Below, piece by piece: positions 1 through 38,148 of a DNA stretch of 42,902 nt (the stretch's first letter is position 1; every line of letters starts with the position of its first letter). The stretch is from a virus. The stretch lies in IMG/VR virus record IMGVR_UViG_3300015360_000081, positions 1-42,902 of that record; one strand, 5' to 3'. The translations under genes were made by a program, and so were the position numbers. The notes under the pieces are model-generated. The model had not been told where the DNA came from. It was given only the letters and a program-made list of their open reading frames with translations, and did no database searches.

Positions 1-17
1 CCCACTTCCTGGCGCCG
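1..17. repeat. Terminal direct repeat, left copy
   Basis: These 17 bases are identical to 42886-42902. When the ends are merged at this repeat, the methyltransferase gene split across them becomes one open frame of exactly 312 codons including the stop. The repeat therefore most likely reflects circular or circularly permuted DNA closed by the assembler, not a biological long terminal repeat. Confidence 0.9.
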
Positions 18-364
18 CTTGCGACGTTCTCGATGACGACCCACTTGGGCTTGAGCTCGCCGACGATGCGGGCAAACTCATACCAGAGTCCCGAGCGGCT
101 GCCAGCAAGGCCAGCGCCCTTGCCAGCGCTGGACACGTCCTGGCATGGAAAACCTCCGCAGATAACGTCGACGGGGTCGAGAATTCCAGTACCAACTGTT
201 TTGACATCTTCGTACCTTTCAGCGTGTGGCCAGTGCCGCGCGAGCACTCGCCGCGCCCAAGCGCTCTGCTCGACCTGCCAGACCGTGTGGCCCAGCCCTG
301 AGCGCTCCAGCCCGAGTTCGAGTCCGCCGATGCCGGCGAATAGGGAGCCAATGGTCAAGTTCAC
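1..364 (-). CDS. DNA (cytosine-5) methyltransferase, N-terminal part (continues at 42885)
   Basis: This is the first 121 codons of a 311-residue m5C methyltransferase that would methylate cytosine C5 in phage DNA, probably to evade host restriction. The start is a GTG at 364, 10 bp after the stop of the preceding gene, with AAGG upstream. Motif I (FAGIGG) is at residues 9-14, the motif IV catalytic PCQ at 73-75 and the motif VI ENV at 112-114. The stretch RSGLWYEFARIV is typical of phage enzymes. The frame runs off the left edge and continues at 42885-42314 with motif VIII and motif X. All key motifs are present, so it should be active. The recognition sequence cannot be read from the sequence. 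It lies in the middle of a leftward operon of small alanine-rich proteins, where it is the only recognisable enzyme. Confidence 0.93.
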   Translation of the reverse strand, partial: MNLTIGSLFAGIGGLELGLERSGLGHTVWQVEQSAWARRVLARHWPHAERYEDVKTVGTGILDPVDVICGGFPCQDVSSAGKGAGLAGSRSGLWYEFARIVGELKPKWVVIENVASGARKW

Positions 365-374
365 GGCGAATGCC

Positions 375-590
375 TTACCGGCCGGCCAGCCGGTCTAGAC
401 GAGGGAAGTCGGCTCGCAGTCGCCGGAGCGCCTCCAGGCTGATGCCGAGATCGTCGGCAGCGGCAGTGAGCGTTGGCTGGAGGCGCATGGTCTCCGTTAT
501 TATCCGCTCGGCCGAGCCGCTGAGAGCGGGAAACTGGCCAGCAAGCGCGGCGCGTAGGACATTGATGGGTGCGGAGGAGTGGGGTCTCAT
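375..590 (-). CDS. Small helix-turn-helix-like protein
   Basis: The product is 71 residues. The start codon ATG at 590 overlaps the stop of the upstream gene (ATGA), which fixes the start; longer in-frame extensions would run into that gene. The C-terminal third (LTAAADDLGISLEALRRLRADFP) has the spacing of a helix-turn-helix of the Fis or terminase small-subunit kind, with Ala, Gly-Ile-Ser and Leu in the turn. There is no signal peptide or membrane segment. It lies just before the methyltransferase and could be a small DNA-binding regulator; this is inference from a weak motif. A terminase small-subunit role is not excluded, but the 36606 gene is a better candidate. Confidence 0.6.
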   Translation of the reverse strand: MRPHSSAPINVLRAALAGQFPALSGSAERIITETMRLQPTLTAAADDLGISLEALRRLRADFPRLDRLAGR

Positions 591-2145: not shown

Positions 2146-2215
2146 GATGTTCCTTTTCCGGGGGCATCCTCATGCCCCACACCCCAAAAGCCCCCGGGCT
2201 CGAAAGCGTGGGGGC
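2142..2215 (-). repeat. 74-bp repeated leader, copy 2
   Basis: This is an exact copy of 1328-1401, upstream of the 1900-2145 gene, with the same two hairpins and ribosome binding site. It also lies directly downstream of the lipoprotein gene 2234-2845. Its GC stem plus T run could therefore end that transcript. Confidence 0.8.
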
Positions 2216-2233
2216 GGACAGAGGGAGGATGGC

Positions 2234-2845
2234 TCAGGCGGACTTCAGTTTCTTGGCAGCCTTGGCAGCCTTCTTGGCGTCAGAAGCAGCCTTCTTTGCA
2301 GCCTTAGCAGCTGCCTTCTTGGCGGCCTTCTTCTCAGCCTTTGCAGCCTTAGCAGCCTCACGGTCCTCCCACTCAGAGTCACTCATCTTGCCATCCTCTC
2401 GAGGGCACGCGAACCCTTTGCAGCCAACCGTCTTGGCAGCCAGGTACGCCTTCTGACGGGCCTCGTAAGCAGCCTTGTCAGCAGCTTCGACGAGCGGGTC
2501 GACAGCAGCAAATGCAGCTTCCTGGGCATAGTGTTCAGCCTCTTCAGCCGCAATCTCAGCATCATACTGGCGACGCTCCTCAGCCATCCCAGGGCAGCCG
2601 ACGAGCTTCTCATCGAAGTCGCAGCCACGAGCTGCTTCAGCTGCGATCTCAGCGTTGTAGTCAGCTTGGTACACCTTCTGGCGAGCTAGCATCGCAGGGC
2701 ACTCGTCCAGATCACCCTCCTGCACACAGCCGCGCGCTTCTTCAAGCTGGATGGCAGTACGAGGAGGAGCTGTTCGAGCCGAAACGCCACAAGCGACAGA
2801 GGAAAATGAGATAGCAACAAGGAGAGAGAGAGCTGTTTTGGTCAT
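2234..2845 (-). CDS. Putative secreted lipoprotein with Cys-pair repeats and Lys/Ala tail
   Basis: The product is 203 residues. It has an N-terminal signal sequence (MTKTALSLLVAISFSSVACG) ending in a lipobox-like S-V-A-C at residues 16-19; the -3 Ser is atypical. Two tandem repeats of about 36 residues follow, each of the form ARGC...CPxM...Y.AEIAAE (Cys 40 and 49, 75 and 84). A third, degenerate Cys pair is at 142 and 147. From residue 164 the tail is almost only Ala and Lys, like a histone H1 tail. It was probably exported and anchored in the envelope. Phage lipoproteins of this kind often alter the surface of the infected cell (superinfection exclusion), but that is inference. The start at 2845 lies 5 nt from a TAACCT box, so the transcript may be leaderless. 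Another possibility is a virion or lysis accessory protein. Confidence 0.75.
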   Translation of the reverse strand: MTKTALSLLVAISFSSVACGVSARTAPPRTAIQLEEARGCVQEGDLDECPAMLARQKVYQADYNAEIAAEAARGCDFDEKLVGCPGMAEERRQYDAEIAAEEAEHYAQEAAFAAVDPLVEAADKAAYEARQKAYLAAKTVGCKGFACPREDGKMSDSEWEDREAAKAAKAEKKAAKKAAAKAAKKAASDAKKAAKAAKKLKSA

Positions 2846-2938
2846 GTCTTAGGTTAGCACGTAACGGTCAAGCTTAGTACCTGTTTTTCTAACAAATGTT
2901 TTTCATGCCAACCTCATTAGTCTACCAACCCACTCGAG

Positions 2939-2954
2939 TGTTTCACGTGAAACA
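2939..2954. promoter_or_regulatory. parS-like centromere site 1 (perfect match)
   Basis: The sequence TGTTTCACGTGAAACA is a perfect 16-bp palindrome identical to the conserved bacterial chromosomal parS site bound by ParB/Spo0J. Two copies in a 43-kb genome, both outside genes, cannot be chance. No ParA or ParB gene is seen in the window, so a host ParB is the likely ligand. Confidence 0.9.
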
Positions 2955-3056
2955 TTGCTCTTATAATCGAGTGGTCACGCCTGGCGGGTCTACCCTCGAG
3001 TGGGGGGGGCACCCGGAGAGTCCACGACACTGCCAGCAAGAATCAGGACCTAAGAG

Positions 3057-3072
3057 TGTTTCACGTGAAACA
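3057..3072. promoter_or_regulatory. parS-like centromere site 2 (perfect match)
   Basis: This is the second perfect copy of TGTTTCACGTGAAACA, 118 bp from the first and in the same GAG...T flanking context. It lies 28 bp before the first unit of the dyad array. Confidence 0.9.
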
Positions 3073-3099
3073 TCTAAGACCATGACCCTATGTGACCCT

Positions 3100-3223
3100 A
3101 TGACATCAATGTCATACCCCTATGACATCCATGTCATATTGACTTCTGATAACCACGACATCCATGTCATACCCCTCTGATAACCATGACATCAATGTCA
3201 TACCCCTATGACATCCATGTCAT
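3100..3223. repeat. Array of five 16-bp dyads, ATGACATCMATGTCAT
   Basis: Copies are at 3100-3115, 3122-3137, 3155-3170 (first half ACGACAT), 3186-3201 and 3208-3223. Each is an inverted repeat of ATGACAT around two bases. Centre spacings are 22, 33, 31 and 22 bp, roughly two or three helical turns, so bound proteins would lie on one face. A 47-bp block containing two dyads is exactly duplicated (3100-3146 and 3186-3232). The array looks like an iteron or operator set for a dimeric DNA-binding protein. It is not a CRISPR, as the spacers are short and conserved. Confidence 0.85.
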
Positions 3224-3244
3224 ATTGACTTCGGCTAATCACTA

Positions 3245-3266
3245 GATTAGTGCAAAACCACTAATC
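3245..3266. repeat. 8-bp inverted repeat (GATTAGTG / CACTAATC)
   Basis: Arms at 3245-3252 and 3259-3266 are separated by six bases. It follows the dyad array directly and could be an operator or a small hairpin. Confidence 0.6.
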
Positions 3267-3297
3267 AACCACCCCTTGAAGTGGAACAGGTCTTGCT

Positions 3298-3539
3298 GCA
3301 AGGCGACTGTTAGGGAGCCTTGCCCTCGTGTCTCCCCTTCCGTGCCTTCACTCCCACGGAGCAACTGACCTTGATTCCCGAAAGCCCTTAAAAAAATTTG
3401 GCCTTCTAGAAGCTCGACTCATCCAGCGAGGTCGAGACCATCTATGGCCATTTGGAAGACCGACCCAAGGGAGTGTCTGGGGCTAGGGCTCTGGACCGTC
3501 TCACGCTTGGGGCGTGTTCCTTAGGTTTCAGGTCCAGAG
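3298..3539. other. Cluster of hairpins, possible structured RNA
   Basis: Perfect stems are GCAAGGC/GCCTTGC (3298-3304/3317-3323), TCCGTG/CACGGA (3339-3344/3355-3360), CTCGAC/GTCGAG (3413-3418/3431-3436) and a 9-bp CTCTGGACC/GGTCCAGAG (3489-3497/3531-3539). The last encloses CACGC/GCGTG (3502-3506/3512-3516). A poly-A/T stretch lies at 3390-3399. The density of stems suggests a non-coding RNA or untranslated leader; the strand is not clear. Confidence 0.45.
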
Positions 3540-3600
3540 AGGTATACACGCGAGACTACATGCCCAAAGTGCTTCTGGTCAAGTCAAGTCGTGATTTTGT

Positions 3601-4023
3601 CTAGCTGGCTATGGCTGCCCTGGTTTGTAGGTAGGACCATCCCATCCTTAGGGCTATTTCCTTCAGTGTTTGCTTCCTTCGGTAGAGGGACTTGGCTCTT
3701 TCTATGTCCTCGGGGTCTAGGTTCAGGGCTGCGGCAGTGAACCTAATCCTGTTCTCAGCTGCCTGGGTCGTTGTGCTGAAGTGGATCGGGTTGACGCAGA
3801 AGGGGCTCTTGCAGTCCCTGACGAGCCAGATGCTCTTGGGGATGGGGCCATACATGGTCTGCCAGAACCACCTTTGGATGTTGATGCTCTTCCCGTCCGT
3901 CCAGACTAGGACCCTGCCTTTCTCTAGGTCTCCTACTTCCCAGCAAGCGCCTGCCCTTGCCTTGGCCAAGTCGGTATCGATGAGAGTCCATGGGTCTTTG
4001 GTCGTGTGCTTTTTCTTTGCCAT
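3601..4023 (-). CDS. HNH-like protein with C-terminal helix-turn-helix
   Basis: The product is 140 residues. Residues 27-95 follow the HNH_3 homing-endonuclease layout (ACWEVG, then WFWQTMYGPIP, then CKSPFCVNPIHF and a final Asn in ENR). The C-terminal 40 residues (TLKEIALRMGWSYLQTRAAI) form a helix-turn-helix. The position that is His in the usual vlHxC motif is Arg here (WLVRDCKSP), so the nuclease may be dead and the protein may act as a DNA-binding regulator. The ATG at 4023 is only 20 bp from the divergent ssb start, so this protein is well placed to control or be controlled with ssb. The stop is TAG. A homing-endonuclease origin is likely; current activity is uncertain. Confidence 0.75.
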   Translation of the reverse strand: MAKKKHTTKDPWTLIDTDLAKARAGACWEVGDLEKGRVLVWTDGKSINIQRWFWQTMYGPIPKSIWLVRDCKSPFCVNPIHFSTTTQAAENRIRFTAAALNLDPEDIERAKSLYRRKQTLKEIALRMGWSYLQTRAAIAS

Positions 4024-4035
4024 CAGTGTTAGAAC
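4007..4035 (+). promoter_or_regulatory. Promoter for ssb, probably leaderless
   Basis: A TAGAAC -10 box at 4030-4035, with a poor -35 (TGCTTT) 17 bp upstream, lies 8 nt before the ssb ATG. It belongs to the same box family as 4746, 27938, 30080 and 36572. Confidence 0.5.
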
Positions 4036-4043
4036 ATACTACC

Positions 4044-4457
4044 ATGTCAAGCATGGCAAATGTAACGGTATTCGGGAGACTCGGGAAAGACCCTGAGGTA
4101 AGAACTGGGGTGAAGAACGGCAAGGAATGGGCCATCTTCAGTTTCAGCGTTGGTGAGCGGCTTTGGGACTCAAAGAAGAAGGAGGCCTTTACCCGTTGGT
4201 GGGAGGTCAGCACCTTCGGGCAGACCAAGTCCCTCGAAAACATGCGGAAGGGCACCATCGTCTGTGCGAACGGGGAGATGACCGTCGAGATGTGGAAGGA
4301 AGCTCCCAAGTTCCGGCTCAGCTGCGAGTCGTCTCGCTCCATCCAGTACAGCAACGACAAGGACTCCAGTAACCGTGAGGCCGGTCGTGAGGCAGCCCGC
4401 GCCAATGGCCCGGCTTCGGACTTCGACTCACCTGACGACGACGACATCCCGTTCTGA
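4044..4457 (+). CDS. ssb: Single-stranded DNA-binding protein
   Basis: The product is 137 residues: an N-terminal OB-fold (NVTVFGRLGKDPEVRTG, then the WWEVSTFG strand and the KGTIVCANGEM strand), a flexible acidic linker, and the canonical SSB tip DDDDIPF at the C-terminus. It coats phage single-stranded DNA, and the tip normally docks recombination and replication proteins, probably including host ones. ATG 4044 (MSSMANV) or the in-frame ATG at 4053 could start it; 4044 is 8 nt from a TAGAAC box with no Shine-Dalgarno, which fits a leaderless message. It would cooperate with the exonuclease-annealase at 30092 and the resolvase at 29509. A structured non-coding block follows. Confidence 0.95.
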   Translation: MSSMANVTVFGRLGKDPEVRTGVKNGKEWAIFSFSVGERLWDSKKKEAFTRWWEVSTFGQTKSLENMRKGTIVCANGEMTVEMWKEAPKFRLSCESSRSIQYSNDKDSSNREAGREAARANGPASDFDSPDDDDIPF

Positions 4458-4465
4458 GCCAAAAG

Positions 4466-4558
4466 ATTCCAGGGTAGCCGGTGCCCCCAGTTCCATACCC
4501 GGCGGCCTTCCTTGCCAGCATCTGTGATGGTGGAAGAACACAGATGACAACCTGGAAT
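4466..4558 (+). ncRNA. Structured element downstream of ssb (three-stem fold)
   Basis: An outer stem ATTCCAGG/CCTGGAAT (4466-4473/4551-4558) encloses GCCGG/CCGGC (4477-4481/4499-4503; alternative GGGTA/TACCC) and CATCTGTG/CACAGATG (4519-4526/4539-4546). Together they form a plausible three-way junction. No gene fits here. It may be an independent small RNA or the 3' structure of the ssb message; the pairing is seen directly, the function is not known. Confidence 0.5.
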
Positions 4559-5742: not shown

Positions 5743-7679
5743 CCGTGGAAGACGACAAACTATCAGAGGTGAACGATGAGACCCCCAAGCTTCCCCGGAT
5801 CTTTCGTGACAGGTGGTATGCCAAGACCGGGGCCGCGTTGGCGAACGAGGTTTGGCTGATAGCGGACAGCCTGGTTGATAACCAAAAGTGGCGAGGCTTA
5901 GCCACGAAGGAAATGATTGAGCTTTACGACGGGCGTCTTCTCATGGGCCAGATGGACTATGGGGCCTGCTCTCTTCAGGACTTTGGGAATGGGACGGATG
6001 GCGAGCTTTCTTGGAACGTCACCAAGAGCGCATGCGATTCTGTGGTGGCTGAGATTTCAGGTCGCCAAAAGCCAATGGCGAAGTTCCAGACCCAGGGCGC
6101 CGGGTGGAAAACCAAGCGAAAAGCCAAGAAGCTAGAGAAGTTCTGCCTGGGCGTGATGAACCAGCGCCAAGGCCCGTACCTCAACTCTTGGGAGCTGATG
6201 GAGGAGACCTTCCGTGACTCGACTGTTGTTGAGTTCGGCATCGCCAAGGTGTTCTGGGATGGGGAGAAGGTGGCCCTGGAGCGCCACTACTGCTGGGAGT
6301 TCTACGTCGACCCGGTGGACGCCAAGTACGGGCAACCGAAGAGCCTGTTCCACGTCCGCACCATGGAGCGTGACCTAGCCATCTGGACTTTCGCCTATGA
6401 CCCGGAGCTGGACCTCACGGACGAAAGGCGTAGCGAGATTGCCTTGGCTCTCATGCAGGCCCCCGAGGTTGCCAAGGAGAGCTTGGGCTCGTTCGGCCAA
6501 GACCGTTCGGCCAAGAGCATCCGCATTGTGGAGGCATGGCGCCTCAAGATTGGCAAAACGCCTGGCAAGCACTGCTTCGCTATCGGCGAGTGCTGCCTTC
6601 ACGAGGAGGTTTGGGAGCGGAGCACGTTCCCGTTCATCCGGATGCGCTGGGACCGCGACATGATTGGGTGGGGAGGGCGCTCTCTCGCGTCCAACGGCAG
6701 GGCCATCCATCTCGAAATCAACGAGAACACGATGAAGCTTCAGGAGCGCTTCCGTATCTGCGGGGCCAAGCGCACCTTTTACGTTCAAGGCTCCGTGGAT
6801 GAGGAGCTTCTCCAGTCCAACGAGCAAGAAACGTTCATCCCAGTGCAACCGGGGATGATTTTCCCGGCTGAAAGCATCCCTCACCCCATCAACGAGTCCG
6901 AACTTCAGTGGATGGGGTTGAATTTCGAGAAGTATTACGAGATTCAGGGCGTTAGTCAGCTCAAGGCGGCCTCGCGCAAGGAGCCGGGCATCGATTCTGC
7001 CATTGGTCTCCGTACTTTGAACGATATGTCGTCTTCACGCTTCAGCGTGAAGGCCAAGATGTACGAGAACAGCTTCGTGGACCTGGCTTACCAGATTATC
7101 GCCACGGCTAAGGACGCATACGAGGGTGGAGCGGAGGTTATCGTGCGGGAACGCGATGCGATCGACTTCGGGGACGTGGATTTGCCAGAGGACATGCTGG
7201 ACATCAGTGTTTCGCCTGCTTCTTCGCTACCGAACGACCCCGCTGGACGCATGCAACACGCCCAGGAGCTATTTGGAGCCGGAATCATCACTACCCCGGT
7301 CTACAAGGAGCTTTTGAACTGGCCGGACCTCGAAAAGGAGATGGATTACCAGACGAGCCAGCGTCGTTACCTGGAAAAGGTCATCGACGGGATGCTGGAC
7401 GCCCAGGAGCTGGACCAACCGGAGAAAGTCATGCCGGACCCGCTCCTGCCGGATAAACTAGGGGCAATGGTCCAAGCGGCCCAAGCCTACTTCGATGCTC
7501 TCTATAACGACGCACCCGAGTACAACCTTCAGCTCTTGCGCGACTACATGTCAGCGCTAGACCAGATTATCGCCATCACGATGATGGGCCAACAGCAGAT
7601 GGGCGCCGCTCCTGGTGCTCCTGCTGGGGGTCCCGGCGGACAACCCGCCCAGCCGAGTCCGGGAGACCAACCAGCATGA
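5736..7679 (+). CDS. Portal protein
   Basis: The product is 647 residues from ATG 5736 (MQPVEDDK); an upstream TTG at 5709 lies inside the inverted repeat and is less likely. It forms the dodecameric ring at one capsid vertex through which DNA is packaged and ejected. The length and features fit P22-type podovirus portals: the N-terminal helical region (WRGLATKEMIELYDGRLLMGQMDYG), the SWNVTKSACDSVVAEISGRQKP segment typical of the clip/wing region, and a C-terminal Gln/Pro/Gly-rich tail. It is the first gene of the late operon, and its stop overlaps the scaffold start (ATGA). Confidence 0.9.
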   Translation: MQPVEDDKLSEVNDETPKLPRIFRDRWYAKTGAALANEVWLIADSLVDNQKWRGLATKEMIELYDGRLLMGQMDYGACSLQDFGNGTDGELSWNVTKSACDSVVAEISGRQKPMAKFQTQGAGWKTKRKAKKLEKFCLGVMNQRQGPYLNSWELMEETFRDSTVVEFGIAKVFWDGEKVALERHYCWEFYVDPVDAKYGQPKSLFHVRTMERDLAIWTFAYDPELDLTDERRSEIALALMQAPEVAKESLGSFGQDRSAKSIRIVEAWRLKIGKTPGKHCFAIGECCLHEEVWERSTFPFIRMRWDRDMIGWGGRSLASNGRAIHLEINENTMKLQERFRICGAKRTFYVQGSVDEELLQSNEQETFIPVQPGMIFPAESIPHPINESELQWMGLNFEKYYEIQGVSQLKAASRKEPGIDSAIGLRTLNDMSSSRFSVKAKMYENSFVDLAYQIIATAKDAYEGGAEVIVRERDAIDFGDVDLPEDMLDISVSPASSLPNDPAGRMQHAQELFGAGIITTPVYKELLNWPDLEKEMDYQTSQRRYLEKVIDGMLDAQELDQPEKVMPDPLLPDKLGAMVQAAQAYFDALYNDAPEYNLQLLRDYMSALDQIIAITMMGQQQMGAAPGAPAGGPGGQPAQPSPGDQPA

Positions 7680-30091: not shown

Positions 30092-31555
30092 ATGGGAACG
30101 CAAAGCGGAGTTTTGGGCATCATCGACCTGTCTCATTTGGTGCACTCCAAGTGGTACTCATACATCAAGAACGAGGAGATGGCAGACCAGGCCGACTTCG
30201 ATGAGGTGGCGGAGTCGGTGTTCCGGTGGGTGGAGAGCTTTTCTATCTGCCACGAGCGGACGATCATTGCAGTCGACGCCCCTCCCTACAACCGCAAGCA
30301 GCTTTCTGCGGAGTACAAGGCGAACCGGAAGGAGAAGAGCGCCAATCTCATTCAGACAATCCGCTACGTCGAGAAGGCGCTGAGCAAGGACCACGACGTT
30401 CAGAAGCACCAGGGGTATGAGGCTGACGATGTGATCGCTTCGGCTGTTCGTGAGGCTTCGGCGGCCGGCTGGTCGAGCATTATCTTGACAAGGGACAAGG
30501 ACCTATTCCAGCTCGTGGATGCCAACTGCTCGATCTTGAGCACCGACACTTCGACGCTGTACGGCCCGCAGGAGGTCTACGCGAAGATGGGCGTACGGCC
30601 CGACCAGATTCTGGATTACCTCTGCCTCGTTGGGGACGCCTCTGACGGCATCTGCGGGGTGCCAGGTGTTGGGGTGGTCACTGCCAAGAAGCTTCTCAAA
30701 GAGTACGAGAACGTTATTGGCGTGCTTGACGCAGCCGAGCGCGGGCTGCTCACCCCCAAACTCAATCAGACGCTTTGCGATGAGGAGGTCCGGCAGACGA
30801 TGGTGCTTGCCGGGGCCTTGGCGACGCTGGAGGACAATCTACCGGTAACGATCGACCTCCCGAGCGTGGCAGTAAAGAACGAAGAGGACGACGGCATGCT
30901 TCATGATGACAATTTAGACGAAACCTACCAGGCACCAGCTCTCCGAGGCTCCGTGAGCCAGATGGAGAGAGACTCGACAGAGGTCCTGGTGAAGCACGAG
31001 GCGCCCACTGGTGGGCCCCCGGCGCTCCCCACCCTGAAGCTCCGTCCCGGCCTGATGGTGGACAGGGACCAGTTCACTTTGCTGTCCAGCATGGCGAAGT
31101 ACTTCCACGATTCTGGCCTGTACCGAAAGGTGCCCAGCCAGGCAGCAATCTTCACAATCATGGAGCTTGGTCTGGAGCTTGGCATCAGCCCGCAGATTGC
31201 TCTGAATAACTTCCACATCATCGAAGGCAGGCCTAGCCCGTCGGCTCACTTCCTAATCGCCATGGCGAAGCGGGACGCCAATTGCGAGTACCTGGAATGC
31301 GTGGAGGTGACTGACTCTCAGGTGACGTGGGAGACCGTGAAGCGCCGGGGATACACGAAGGCAATGCGGTTCACGTACTCGATGGAGGACGCCAAGAGAG
31401 ACGCGCTCAAGTGGGCCAACGGCGGGAAAAACTGCAAGGCGATGCTGCGCAAGACGTCCGGCTCCCAGGCAGCCCGGCTCTGGTACCCCGAGGCGTGCAG
31501 TGGCCTCTACAGCGCCGAGGAGATGGGCTTCGTTTCGGGGACGGGCGATGAATAA
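30092..31555 (+). CDS. 5'-3' exonuclease fused to a phage recombinase/annealing-protein-like domain
   Basis: The product is 487 residues. Residues 1-255 form a complete FEN/5'-exonuclease domain: Asp12, Asp62, Arg/Lys arch (YNRKQLSAEYKANRK), E110-ADD113, D135/D137 (LTRDKD), and D182/D185 plus the helix-hairpin-helix GVPGVGVVTA. After an acidic linker (260-315), residues 320-480 match phage recombinases of the RecT-like single-strand annealing group: a lead helix with SGLYRKVPSQ, then MELGLELGISPQIALNNFHIIEGRPSPSAHFLIA, then TYSMEDAKRD, and the end QAARLWYPEACSGLYSAEE. A nuclease that makes 3' tails and the protein that anneals them are thus on one chain. It leads the replication operon and probably acts with SSB and the resolvase. 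The exonuclease part is sure; the annealase assignment is by pattern. Confidence 0.85.
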   Translation: MGTQSGVLGIIDLSHLVHSKWYSYIKNEEMADQADFDEVAESVFRWVESFSICHERTIIAVDAPPYNRKQLSAEYKANRKEKSANLIQTIRYVEKALSKDHDVQKHQGYEADDVIASAVREASAAGWSSIILTRDKDLFQLVDANCSILSTDTSTLYGPQEVYAKMGVRPDQILDYLCLVGDASDGICGVPGVGVVTAKKLLKEYENVIGVLDAAERGLLTPKLNQTLCDEEVRQTMVLAGALATLEDNLPVTIDLPSVAVKNEEDDGMLHDDNLDETYQAPALRGSVSQMERDSTEVLVKHEAPTGGPPALPTLKLRPGLMVDRDQFTLLSSMAKYFHDSGLYRKVPSQAAIFTIMELGLELGISPQIALNNFHIIEGRPSPSAHFLIAMAKRDANCEYLECVEVTDSQVTWETVKRRGYTKAMRFTYSMEDAKRDALKWANGGKNCKAMLRKTSGSQAARLWYPEACSGLYSAEEMGFVSGTGDE

Positions 31556-35924: not shown

Positions 35925-36556
35925 CAGCGAGCCTTGGGCTCCCCGAGACCACAAAGAATGTCAAAGTGGTCTCGATTCCACGTGTTCTTGCGGTGGTAGC
36001 GGTAGGTGTACAGGTCAGACCGGTCCATCATGACCATGTCAGTGCGTAGCATCTTACGCATTAGGACGGTGTCTTCGCCCTTGTCCAGTGAGGGCCAGCC
36101 TCCAAAGGAGCGAACATAGTCGGCTCTGGCCACCATGGTGCACTCCCAGGGGTAGCGATGGGAGGTCCAGAACAGGTCAGCCTGGACATCATTCAGGACA
36201 ATCCTTTCGAGGAAACAGGCCTTTTGTTTGCTACTTTCGAGAGCGTCTAACTGGTCAGCCAGTCGCGTTGAGGCATGGTGGTCATCCGCGTCCCACATCG
36301 CGATGTACTCCCCACGAGCCAGCGCCAGCGCCTCGTTCCTAGCGTCCCCCAATGTCGGGCCCACCTGCCGCACATTATGGCAGTTGGGGGCATCCTTGAG
36401 GGCCGACGTCAGCTCGTAGTCGTCGTGTTCCTCAGTAACGACGATTAGCTCCACCTCCAACGCGTCCAGACCCACCTGGTCCAGGAACGTATAGAAGCCA
36501 GGACGCCACTCAGTGTTGCCAACCGGCATGATGCACGACACTTTCACATTGCTCAT
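35921..36556 (-). CDS. GT2-family glycosyltransferase
   Basis: The product is 211 residues. VKVSCIMPVGNTEWRPGFYTFLDQ, then VELIVVTEE, then LGDARNEALALARGEYIAMWDADDHHASTRLADQLDAL form the nucleotide-sugar-binding half of a GT2 enzyme with the DAD/DDH metal motif. Further on, a SFGGWPSLDKGEDTVLMRKM stretch provides the ED catalytic motif. It is complete for a soluble GT-A domain and has no membrane anchor. Together with the 25805 enzyme, the phage carries two glycosyltransferases of different sequence. It is a single-gene leftward unit with its own promoter whose -10 is 6 nt from the ATG. Confidence 0.88.
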   Translation of the reverse strand: MSNVKVSCIMPVGNTEWRPGFYTFLDQVGLDALEVELIVVTEEHDDYELTSALKDAPNCHNVRQVGPTLGDARNEALALARGEYIAMWDADDHHASTRLADQLDALESSKQKACFLERIVLNDVQADLFWTSHRYPWECTMVARADYVRSFGGWPSLDKGEDTVLMRKMLRTDMVMMDRSDLYTYRYHRKNTWNRDHFDILCGLGEPKARC

Positions 36557-36577
36557 CTTATAATTCTAGGTTAGTAC
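36549..36577 (+). promoter_or_regulatory. Rightward promoter of the 36606 operon
   Basis: TTGCTC (36549-36554), 17 bp, TAGTAC (36572-36577), followed by a leader with AAGAGG before ATG 36606. It overlaps the divergent glycosyltransferase promoter completely, so the two are probably used in alternation. Confidence 0.6.
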
Positions 36578-36591
36578 ACAACGGAAATCAA
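36563..36591 (-). promoter_or_regulatory. Leftward promoter of the glycosyltransferase gene
   Basis: TTGATT (36591-36586), 17 bp, TAGAAT (36568-36563), then 6 nt to the ATG at 36556. This is the best consensus promoter seen in the window, again with no room for a ribosome site. Confidence 0.7.
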
Positions 36592-36605
36592 GAGGTAGCT
36601 AAAAC

Positions 36606-37214
36606 ATGAGAATCTCAGTCCTATCTGCCGATATGCTATCCGTCGCTGGGCCAGCGGTAGCTCAAGATGAGCGGGTGGCAGTCGTCTTCTCGGTCATGCG
36701 AGCCTCCCAGTGGTCTCCGCTGGCTGAGACAGAGCTGCGCGGTCTCTGGGGCCTTCAGGCCCAGGCGATGAAGGAGATTGTTGCCGAGGCACGCGGAACC
36801 ATGCGCGGAGCCATGGGCGAGGACAGGGATGACGCGAGGGCGGAGATGGTCCAGCAGCTGGCGCACGTCGTGTCCCTGGCCCTGGGCAAGAAGAAGCACA
36901 TTCTGCTCAAAAGCAAAGATGGCGACGTTATTGAGAGCGTCGCCGAGCCGGACCTGAAGGCAGCTACTGCTGCGCTGAACATTCAGGCGGACCTGCTTGG
37001 ACTCAAGATAAAGGCCGGTCGCGAGGACAGCGGGAGTGACGAAGACGCTGACTCGATGGTTATCAAACTGATGGCGGCGTTCGAACGAAAGCGCCCAATT
37101 TTGACAGAAGGAATCGAACATAATGACACAAAAGCTCTCCCTAAAGGAATTGCGCCTGCTCCAACCAACGGTAATTCTGGGGACGAAACCGGTTTCGTCG
37201 CTGATAGCGACTGA
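36606..37214 (+). CDS. Candidate terminase small subunit
   Basis: The product is 202 residues. An N-terminal helix-turn-helix-like part (AVVFSVMRASQWSPLAETELRGLWGLQAQAMKEIVAEARGTMRG) is followed by a charged helix (DDARAEMVQQLAHVVSLALG). Then comes the segment EPDLKAATAALNIQADLLGLK, which is the common ending of the oligomerisation helix in phage small terminases. The C-terminus is disordered. It would bind phage DNA and load the large subunit. It is distant from terL and on the other strand, so the call rests on pattern. The leader has AAGAGG. The next gene starts inside its 3' end. Confidence 0.5.
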   Translation: MRISVLSADMLSVAGPAVAQDERVAVVFSVMRASQWSPLAETELRGLWGLQAQAMKEIVAEARGTMRGAMGEDRDDARAEMVQQLAHVVSLALGKKKHILLKSKDGDVIESVAEPDLKAATAALNIQADLLGLKIKAGREDSGSDEDADSMVIKLMAAFERKRPILTEGIEHNDTKALPKGIAPAPTNGNSGDETGFVADSD

Positions 37215-37452: not shown

Positions 37453-37813
37453 GCCGCTCCCTGACATCAACAGCCTGTTGCCTGATGTGGTGCGGGTGGT
37501 GTCCAAGGGCGGGACCGTCAAGGTCTGCCGCGTCGAGGGGATAGGGAAGCCGGGTAGCCTTCTGCGAGTCCGTTGGCCGAACTTTGCCGGCATTCGCGAA
37601 TTCAGTCTGTCGCATGGAGCGCAGCTAACCAACCCTCAGTGGGACAGGGAGTGGTCGCTGCATCCGGAGGACCGGGCAACCGTTCTGCAAGCGATGACCG
37701 TCTGCAAGGTCCACATCAAACAGGGCAACCGGCCGGTAAAGCCAGAGAGCCCACACAGAAGCCGGACCCCTAAGGTCCACCCGCGTCAAACCAACATCTT
37801 TGAGGTGAAATGA
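37439..37813 (+). CDS. Hypothetical protein, 124 aa
   Basis: The product is 124 residues from ATG 37439, overlapping the previous gene by 14 bp. It is beta-rich at first (DVVRVVSKGGTVKVCRVEGIGKPGSLLRVRWPN), with a basic Pro-rich C-terminal tail (QGNRPVKPESPHRSRTPKVHPRQ). The charge pattern suggests nucleic-acid contact. Its stop overlaps the GroES-like gene start (ATGATG). Confidence 0.6.
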   Translation: MAAAEPLPDINSLLPDVVRVVSKGGTVKVCRVEGIGKPGSLLRVRWPNFAGIREFSLSHGAQLTNPQWDREWSLHPEDRATVLQAMTVCKVHIKQGNRPVKPESPHRSRTPKVHPRQTNIFEVK

Positions 37814-38148
37814 TGATCCGACTACTAGGTGACAGTGTGCTTCTGAAACTAGACCCCGAGCACTTGAAGGAGAGCCCTGGCGGGATTCTGCTGGTCGAGG
37901 CGATCGACCCCAAGAGCCGGCAGCGCGGAGAGGTGGCAGCTACGGTCATCGCCGTTGGGCCCGGGACTGAGGAATACCCGGTCGATGTATCCCCGGGGGA
38001 TAGGGTACTTGTCCCCAAGCTGGCTGGGGATAACCTGTTGGCGGGGATCGACGCTCTGCTTGAGTACTTTCCGGCTGGCACGACCAAGGGTGAGGAATTC
38101 AGAATCGCCAGGGAGAGCGAAATCCTCGGTATTCTGTGCGACAGTTGA
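37810..38148 (+). CDS. GroES-like co-chaperonin
   Basis: The product is 112 residues. It follows the Cpn10 fold from end to end: IRLLGDSVLLKLDPE, the mobile loop ending ESPGGILLVE (the GGI-hydrophobic motif that docks GroEL), RGEVAATVIAVGPG, VSPGDRVLVPKLAG, and the final ESEILGIL. It would replace host GroES as the lid of GroEL to fold a phage protein, as T4 gp31 does for the T4 capsid. It is about 15 residues longer than bacterial GroES. It lies away from the capsid genes in a small early-type operon, coupled to the upstream gene. Confidence 0.88.
   Translation: MMIRLLGDSVLLKLDPEHLKESPGGILLVEAIDPKSRQRGEVAATVIAVGPGTEEYPVDVSPGDRVLVPKLAGDNLLAGIDALLEYFPAGTTKGEEFRIARESEILGILCDS

Follow-up and report, generated by a model that had tools for sequence, protein, structure and literature searches.

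A pair of perfect host-type parS sites in a phage genome without detectable ParA or ParB, and its possible role as a borrowed host centromere

The window (the whole stretch of DNA analysed here) is an entire IMG/VR record of 42,902 nt. The non-coding gap between a putative lipoprotein gene and a gene for an HNH endonuclease-like protein contains two identical copies of the parS palindrome TGTTTCACGTGAAACA (core GTTTCACGTGAAAC), with starts 118 bp apart and with identity extending to a 20-bp repeat, GAGTGTTTCACGTGAAACAT (Table 1). Being exact, intergenic and clustered beyond chance, the two copies have the characteristics of chromosomal-type parS sites. No further parS with up to three mismatches was found in the 42.9-kb window, and Markov models of order 1 to 4 fitted to the window give an expectation of 4-5 × 10−6 copies of the 16-mer. 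The sole ORF spanning the sites (2896-3180, 94 aa) has a negative coding potential (-0.07), that of the three genes nearest the gap being +0.15 to +0.28. The coordinates, the exactness and the coding potential all confirm the first-pass annotation, which had described two perfect parS sites 118 bp apart in a non-coding region; its naming of the motif as the universal ParB/Spo0J site is correct as to the exact match, but "universal" is slightly too strong, since some hosts use one-base variants of parS.

Table 1. Features of the parS-bearing gap, its flanking genes and the gene split by the contig ends
Feature	Coordinates	Strand	Basis or remark
Putative lipoprotein gene, 203 aa	2234..2845	-	ORF and coding potential; points away from the gap
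Non-coding gap, 755 bp, with both parS sites and the palindrome array	2846..3600		No ORF of coding-like codon usage
Inverted repeat CCCACTCGAGTGT / ACCCTCGAGTGGG enclosing parS site 1 and a TATAAT box (2962-2967)	2929..3004		Significance uncertain
parS site 1	2939..2954		Exact match, perfect 16-bp palindrome
parS site 2, identical to site 1	3057..3072		Exact match
Five 16-bp palindromes ATGACATCNATGTCAT	3100..3223 (starts 3100, 3122, 3155 (degenerate), 3186, 3208)		Count reached in 0 of 100 shuffles
HNH endonuclease-like protein, far side of the gap	3601..4023	-	PHROG matches; weak C-terminal HTH match (HTH_38)
Single-strand DNA-binding protein (SSB), first of the rightward genes	4044..4457	+	PF00436, 8 × 10−11
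C5 cytosine methyltransferase, split by the contig ends	42865-42314, then ~1-375	-	Intact frame once the ends are joined at a 17-bp overlap

The gap also contains the ATGACATCNATGTCAT palindromes, which the first-pass annotation does not mention, with spacings of 22, 33, 31 and 22 and with repeats of CTGATAACCA between some of them; these palindromes were absent from the other viral loci examined, and they are likely to be an operator or iteron array of a putative regulator. Matches resembling CACTCGAGTG are no commoner than chance would give. A hairpin between the two parS sites was rejected as a functional form, the single-stranded pairing being real yet expected of any pair of identical palindromes. 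The putative lipoprotein, whose gene starts 94 bp from parS site 1, had no family match.

This arrangement bears on the main rival to retention of the phage genome by the host partition machinery, namely that host ParB acts here as a transcription regulator, nucleating at the pair and, together with a palindrome-binding regulator, silencing or timing promoters of the gap (for the lipoprotein, HNH and SSB or early genes). The pair lies between gene blocks, beside the operator-like array and shortly upstream of a gene start, and parS pairs in two other viral contigs (L040 and L065) likewise bracket intergenic regions. Additionally, ParB of Pseudomonas aeruginosa represses promoters beside parS3 and parS4 (PMC5521831). 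However, a single consensus promoter was found in 2200-4500, away from the sites and within the number expected by chance, and perfect sites of chromosomal grade would be unneeded for a regulatory role; the regulatory explanation is considered rather unlikely.

The genome is probably complete, circular or permuted, and of about 42,885 bp, because the contig ends overlap by 17 bp and joining them restores a single C5-methyltransferase frame. It encodes a terminase, an endolysin, the SSB, DnaD-like loader proteins, a RuvC-like resolvase, a GroES and an exonuclease/RecT-like fusion, as well as a portal-like protein and a major capsid protein (MCP), both assigned by position and by their relatives. 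Most of the small proteins had no family match, the Rfam search gave no match and no tRNA was found in the window. The fusion is a 487-aa frame (30092-31555, + strand) that combines a 5'-3' exonuclease (residues 10-264) with a partial RecT-like single-strand annealing domain (residues ~350-479), a combination that looks unusual. The GroES-like co-chaperonin (37810-38148, + strand; Cpn10, 1.9 × 10−9) has a homologue in another viral contig, L176, directly upstream of the terminase. The phage is remote from named phages: its terminase is 23-29% identical to those of HTVC010P-like pelagiphages, with no close relative by terminase, and neither DNA similarity nor a portal match to named phages was found. 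The endolysin is 55% identical to endolysins of Pseudomonas and Stenotrophomonas phages, and because of this resemblance the host is probably Gram-negative.

In a six-frame profile search of the window, ParB_N (PF02195), parB_part (TIGR00180) and ParA (AAA_31) gave no match at E≤10, in agreement with the first-pass annotation, which had noted no ParB or ParA gene. The genome therefore has no detectable ParB and ParA of its own, which characterise the parABS loci of phage-plasmids, although a highly diverged ParB/ParA-like protein may lie beyond profile detection. As most of the small proteins lack a family match, such a ParB-like protein encoded by the phage might have the parS pair as its operator or centromere. 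Nevertheless, both ParB profiles were silent, the few matches to the GERR/GNRR motif are all in short or unlikely frames, and the usual reader of chromosomal-type parS is a ParB of the chromosomal type, from a strongly conserved family, all of which makes this explanation very improbable.

The absence of an integrase, also claimed earlier, is likewise supported. The search covered tyrosine integrases (profile Phage_integrase), and the one match (36422-36637) was rejected as noise, being sub-threshold, interrupted by three in-frame stops and antisense to a glycosyltransferase-like gene. An extrachromosomal prophage would be expected to have no integrase, yet control viruses often lack one too. 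The window has no recognisable lysogeny gene, repressor gene or gene for plasmid replication, and two protein-pattern scans, from the MCP and terminase alignments, found no prophage or plasmid-borne relatives among 84,980 genomes; terminases found on plasmids are only 23-28% identical to that of the phage. With no such gene and no such relative, a non-lytic state has no positive evidence in its favour.

Searches with the MCP recovered nine records at 42-48% identity and four remoter ones. None of the nine contains parS, most of them being fragments and two long (37 and 41.8 kb), and the four remoter records are likewise without it. One three-mismatch site, in the record G055, was discarded as parS on account of its position in an apparent glycosyltransferase gene. 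The first-pass annotation had proposed looking for conserved parS pairs in related phages and had counted their lack against its reading, and the absence from the nine relatives goes part of the way towards that. Among other phages, the first 50 kb of the 55-kb record of Pseudomonas phage PaMx28 contain no parS, even when two mismatches are allowed, and a much remoter relative (L062, portal 22% identical) has one intergenic parS. The relatives found thus give no support for conservation of the pair in the phage's lineage, and because the pair is absent from them, it was probably gained in this lineage. The same lack of conservation in the nearest relatives would be compatible with a chance occurrence or with a passive remnant left by recombination with DNA of the host origin. 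This is very improbable, with two perfect copies present against about 5 × 10−6 expected for one, and with the same pattern recurring in many unrelated viruses.

A scan of IMG/VR found the exact parS in at least 120 stretches of viral contigs, while two control palindromes of the same composition occurred in 33 and 4 stretches of the whole collection; IMG/VR includes many fragments and perhaps some contigs of bacterial origin. Among the matches listed, 65 of 146 viral parS sites (44%) fall within ORFs of 100 aa or longer, compared with 30 of 33 (91%) for the first control (Fisher p = 5 × 10−7). Two or more sites are present in 17 of 120 loci among the matches listed, most loci having one, and pairs with a gap of 90-120 bp were found in 18 viral contigs. 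Outside the 16-mer there is a symmetric flank preference, with A before and T after the viral parS enriched. In three related contigs all three parS sites are exact and their flanks variable. A further group of seven related contigs (L045, L054, L159, L163, L165, L168 and L172; 72-82% nucleotide identity) has three to five parS between small genes, with three or more exact cores in each. Because the contigs of both groups were picked for having sites, this conservation is partly ascertained.

Of the parS-bearing viral contigs, L170 has six exact parS cores and two that differ by one base in 6138-6446, mostly at a regular spacing of 38 bp, and L025 resembles actinobacterial phages; no isolated close relatives were found for L065, L166 and L162. 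A different palindrome, TGTTACACGTGTAACA, which had served as a control, is present in at least eight copies in a 23-kb contig (L178/L181, IMGVR_UViG_3300037423_000235).

The recurrence of parS clusters in viral contigs, mostly without detectable ParB, could also be seen as sabotage, in which ParB/SMC is titrated by the numerous copies of the phage, with disturbed segregation or division of the host as the result, since a replicating phage would multiply its parS sites. However, the genome of this phage has no more than two sites, and most of the parS-bearing viral loci among the matches listed have a single one, so few that they would hardly exhaust ParB; a decoy role is accordingly judged improbable. 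As for the genes that accompany the sites, ParB_N matched in two of 50 parS-bearing viral records and a tyrosine integrase in three, many of these records being fragments, and in 36 control viral records the figures were two (one above the cut-off) and three. The rarity of ParB and integrase in parS-bearing viruses was therefore rejected as positive evidence, and their joint lack does not by itself point to the use of host ParB, as it is about as common in the controls.

Here it is proposed that the parS pair is a borrowed host centromere that retains the non-integrated phage genome, a reading for and against which the balance is about even. The use of host ParB, which the first-pass annotation had put forward, stands as the best reading because the sites are of host type, no ParA, ParB or integrase is detectable, and parS in viral contigs shows enrichment, clustering and a preference for intergenic positions. 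Extrachromosomal lysogeny, titration of host ParB and shielding of the phage DNA, all suggested in that annotation, are candidate uses between which these data do not discriminate. As judged from the sequence of the sites, the pair is probably bound by host chromosomal ParB, whose specificity in the actual host may differ from the general parS. In the proposed mechanism, host ParB would bind both sites and load as CTP-dependent sliding clamps across the surrounding phage DNA, and these clamps would couple the phage genome to the host ParA/SMC machinery for origin segregation. The non-integrated genome, whether delayed lytic, pseudolysogenic or a plasmid-prophage, would then be placed and retained with the host origin, and dividing cells would thereby keep it.

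Several known systems are comparable with the one proposed. Unstable plasmids are stabilised by chromosomal par operons that have just one parS (PMC7022226), and one parS is reported to be enough for segregation in Pseudomonas aeruginosa (PMC4368675). Chromosomal ParABS uses the same site in a similarly clustered arrangement, whereas in the window the sites belong to a phage that has no parAB. Phage-plasmids and cluster A mycobacteriophages also have centromere sites on the phage genome and segregate without integration, but they do so with their own ParA/ParB and their own parS. The earlier proposal that carrying only the host centromere would be a different strategy from that of phage-plasmids with their own par loci has a precedent in phi29. 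This phage has four one-mismatch parS sites, TGTTTCACGTGGAACA, and its genome is reportedly trapped in spores by host Spo0J (Meijer 2005, via PMC9437464). Like phi29, the phage described here has several host-type parS sites and no detectable ParB; the phi29 sites, however, are scattered and single, each with one mismatch, whereas in the present phage, which is unrelated and probably infects a Gram-negative host, a perfect pair shares one gap with a palindrome array. Sites for a host factor are also massed in a large intergenic region in the phages of Alphaproteobacteria with CtrA sites (lytic deferment; PMC9437464), but the factor there is the host transcription factor CtrA and not a centromere protein.

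While phi29 already exemplifies a phage that uses host parS and has no ParB, the perfect pair in one gap, next to an operator-like array and in an unrelated phage, is new. The literature searched, from which most subscription papers (e.g., the parS survey Livny 2007) were absent, yielded no survey of phages for host-type parS. It is tentatively suggested, with somewhat less than even confidence, that clusters of host-type parS without ParB are a widespread device that has gone largely unrecognised, with which many unrelated phages lacking an integrase tether or segregate their genomes via host ParABS/SMC, phi29 being merely the first known. If the host centromere is indeed common in phages without partition genes, the segregation system would be a general docking point for intracellular phage genomes, which would account for the persistence of non-integrating phages in dividing hosts, and parS in a virus without ParB would be an easily testable signature for finding such phages.
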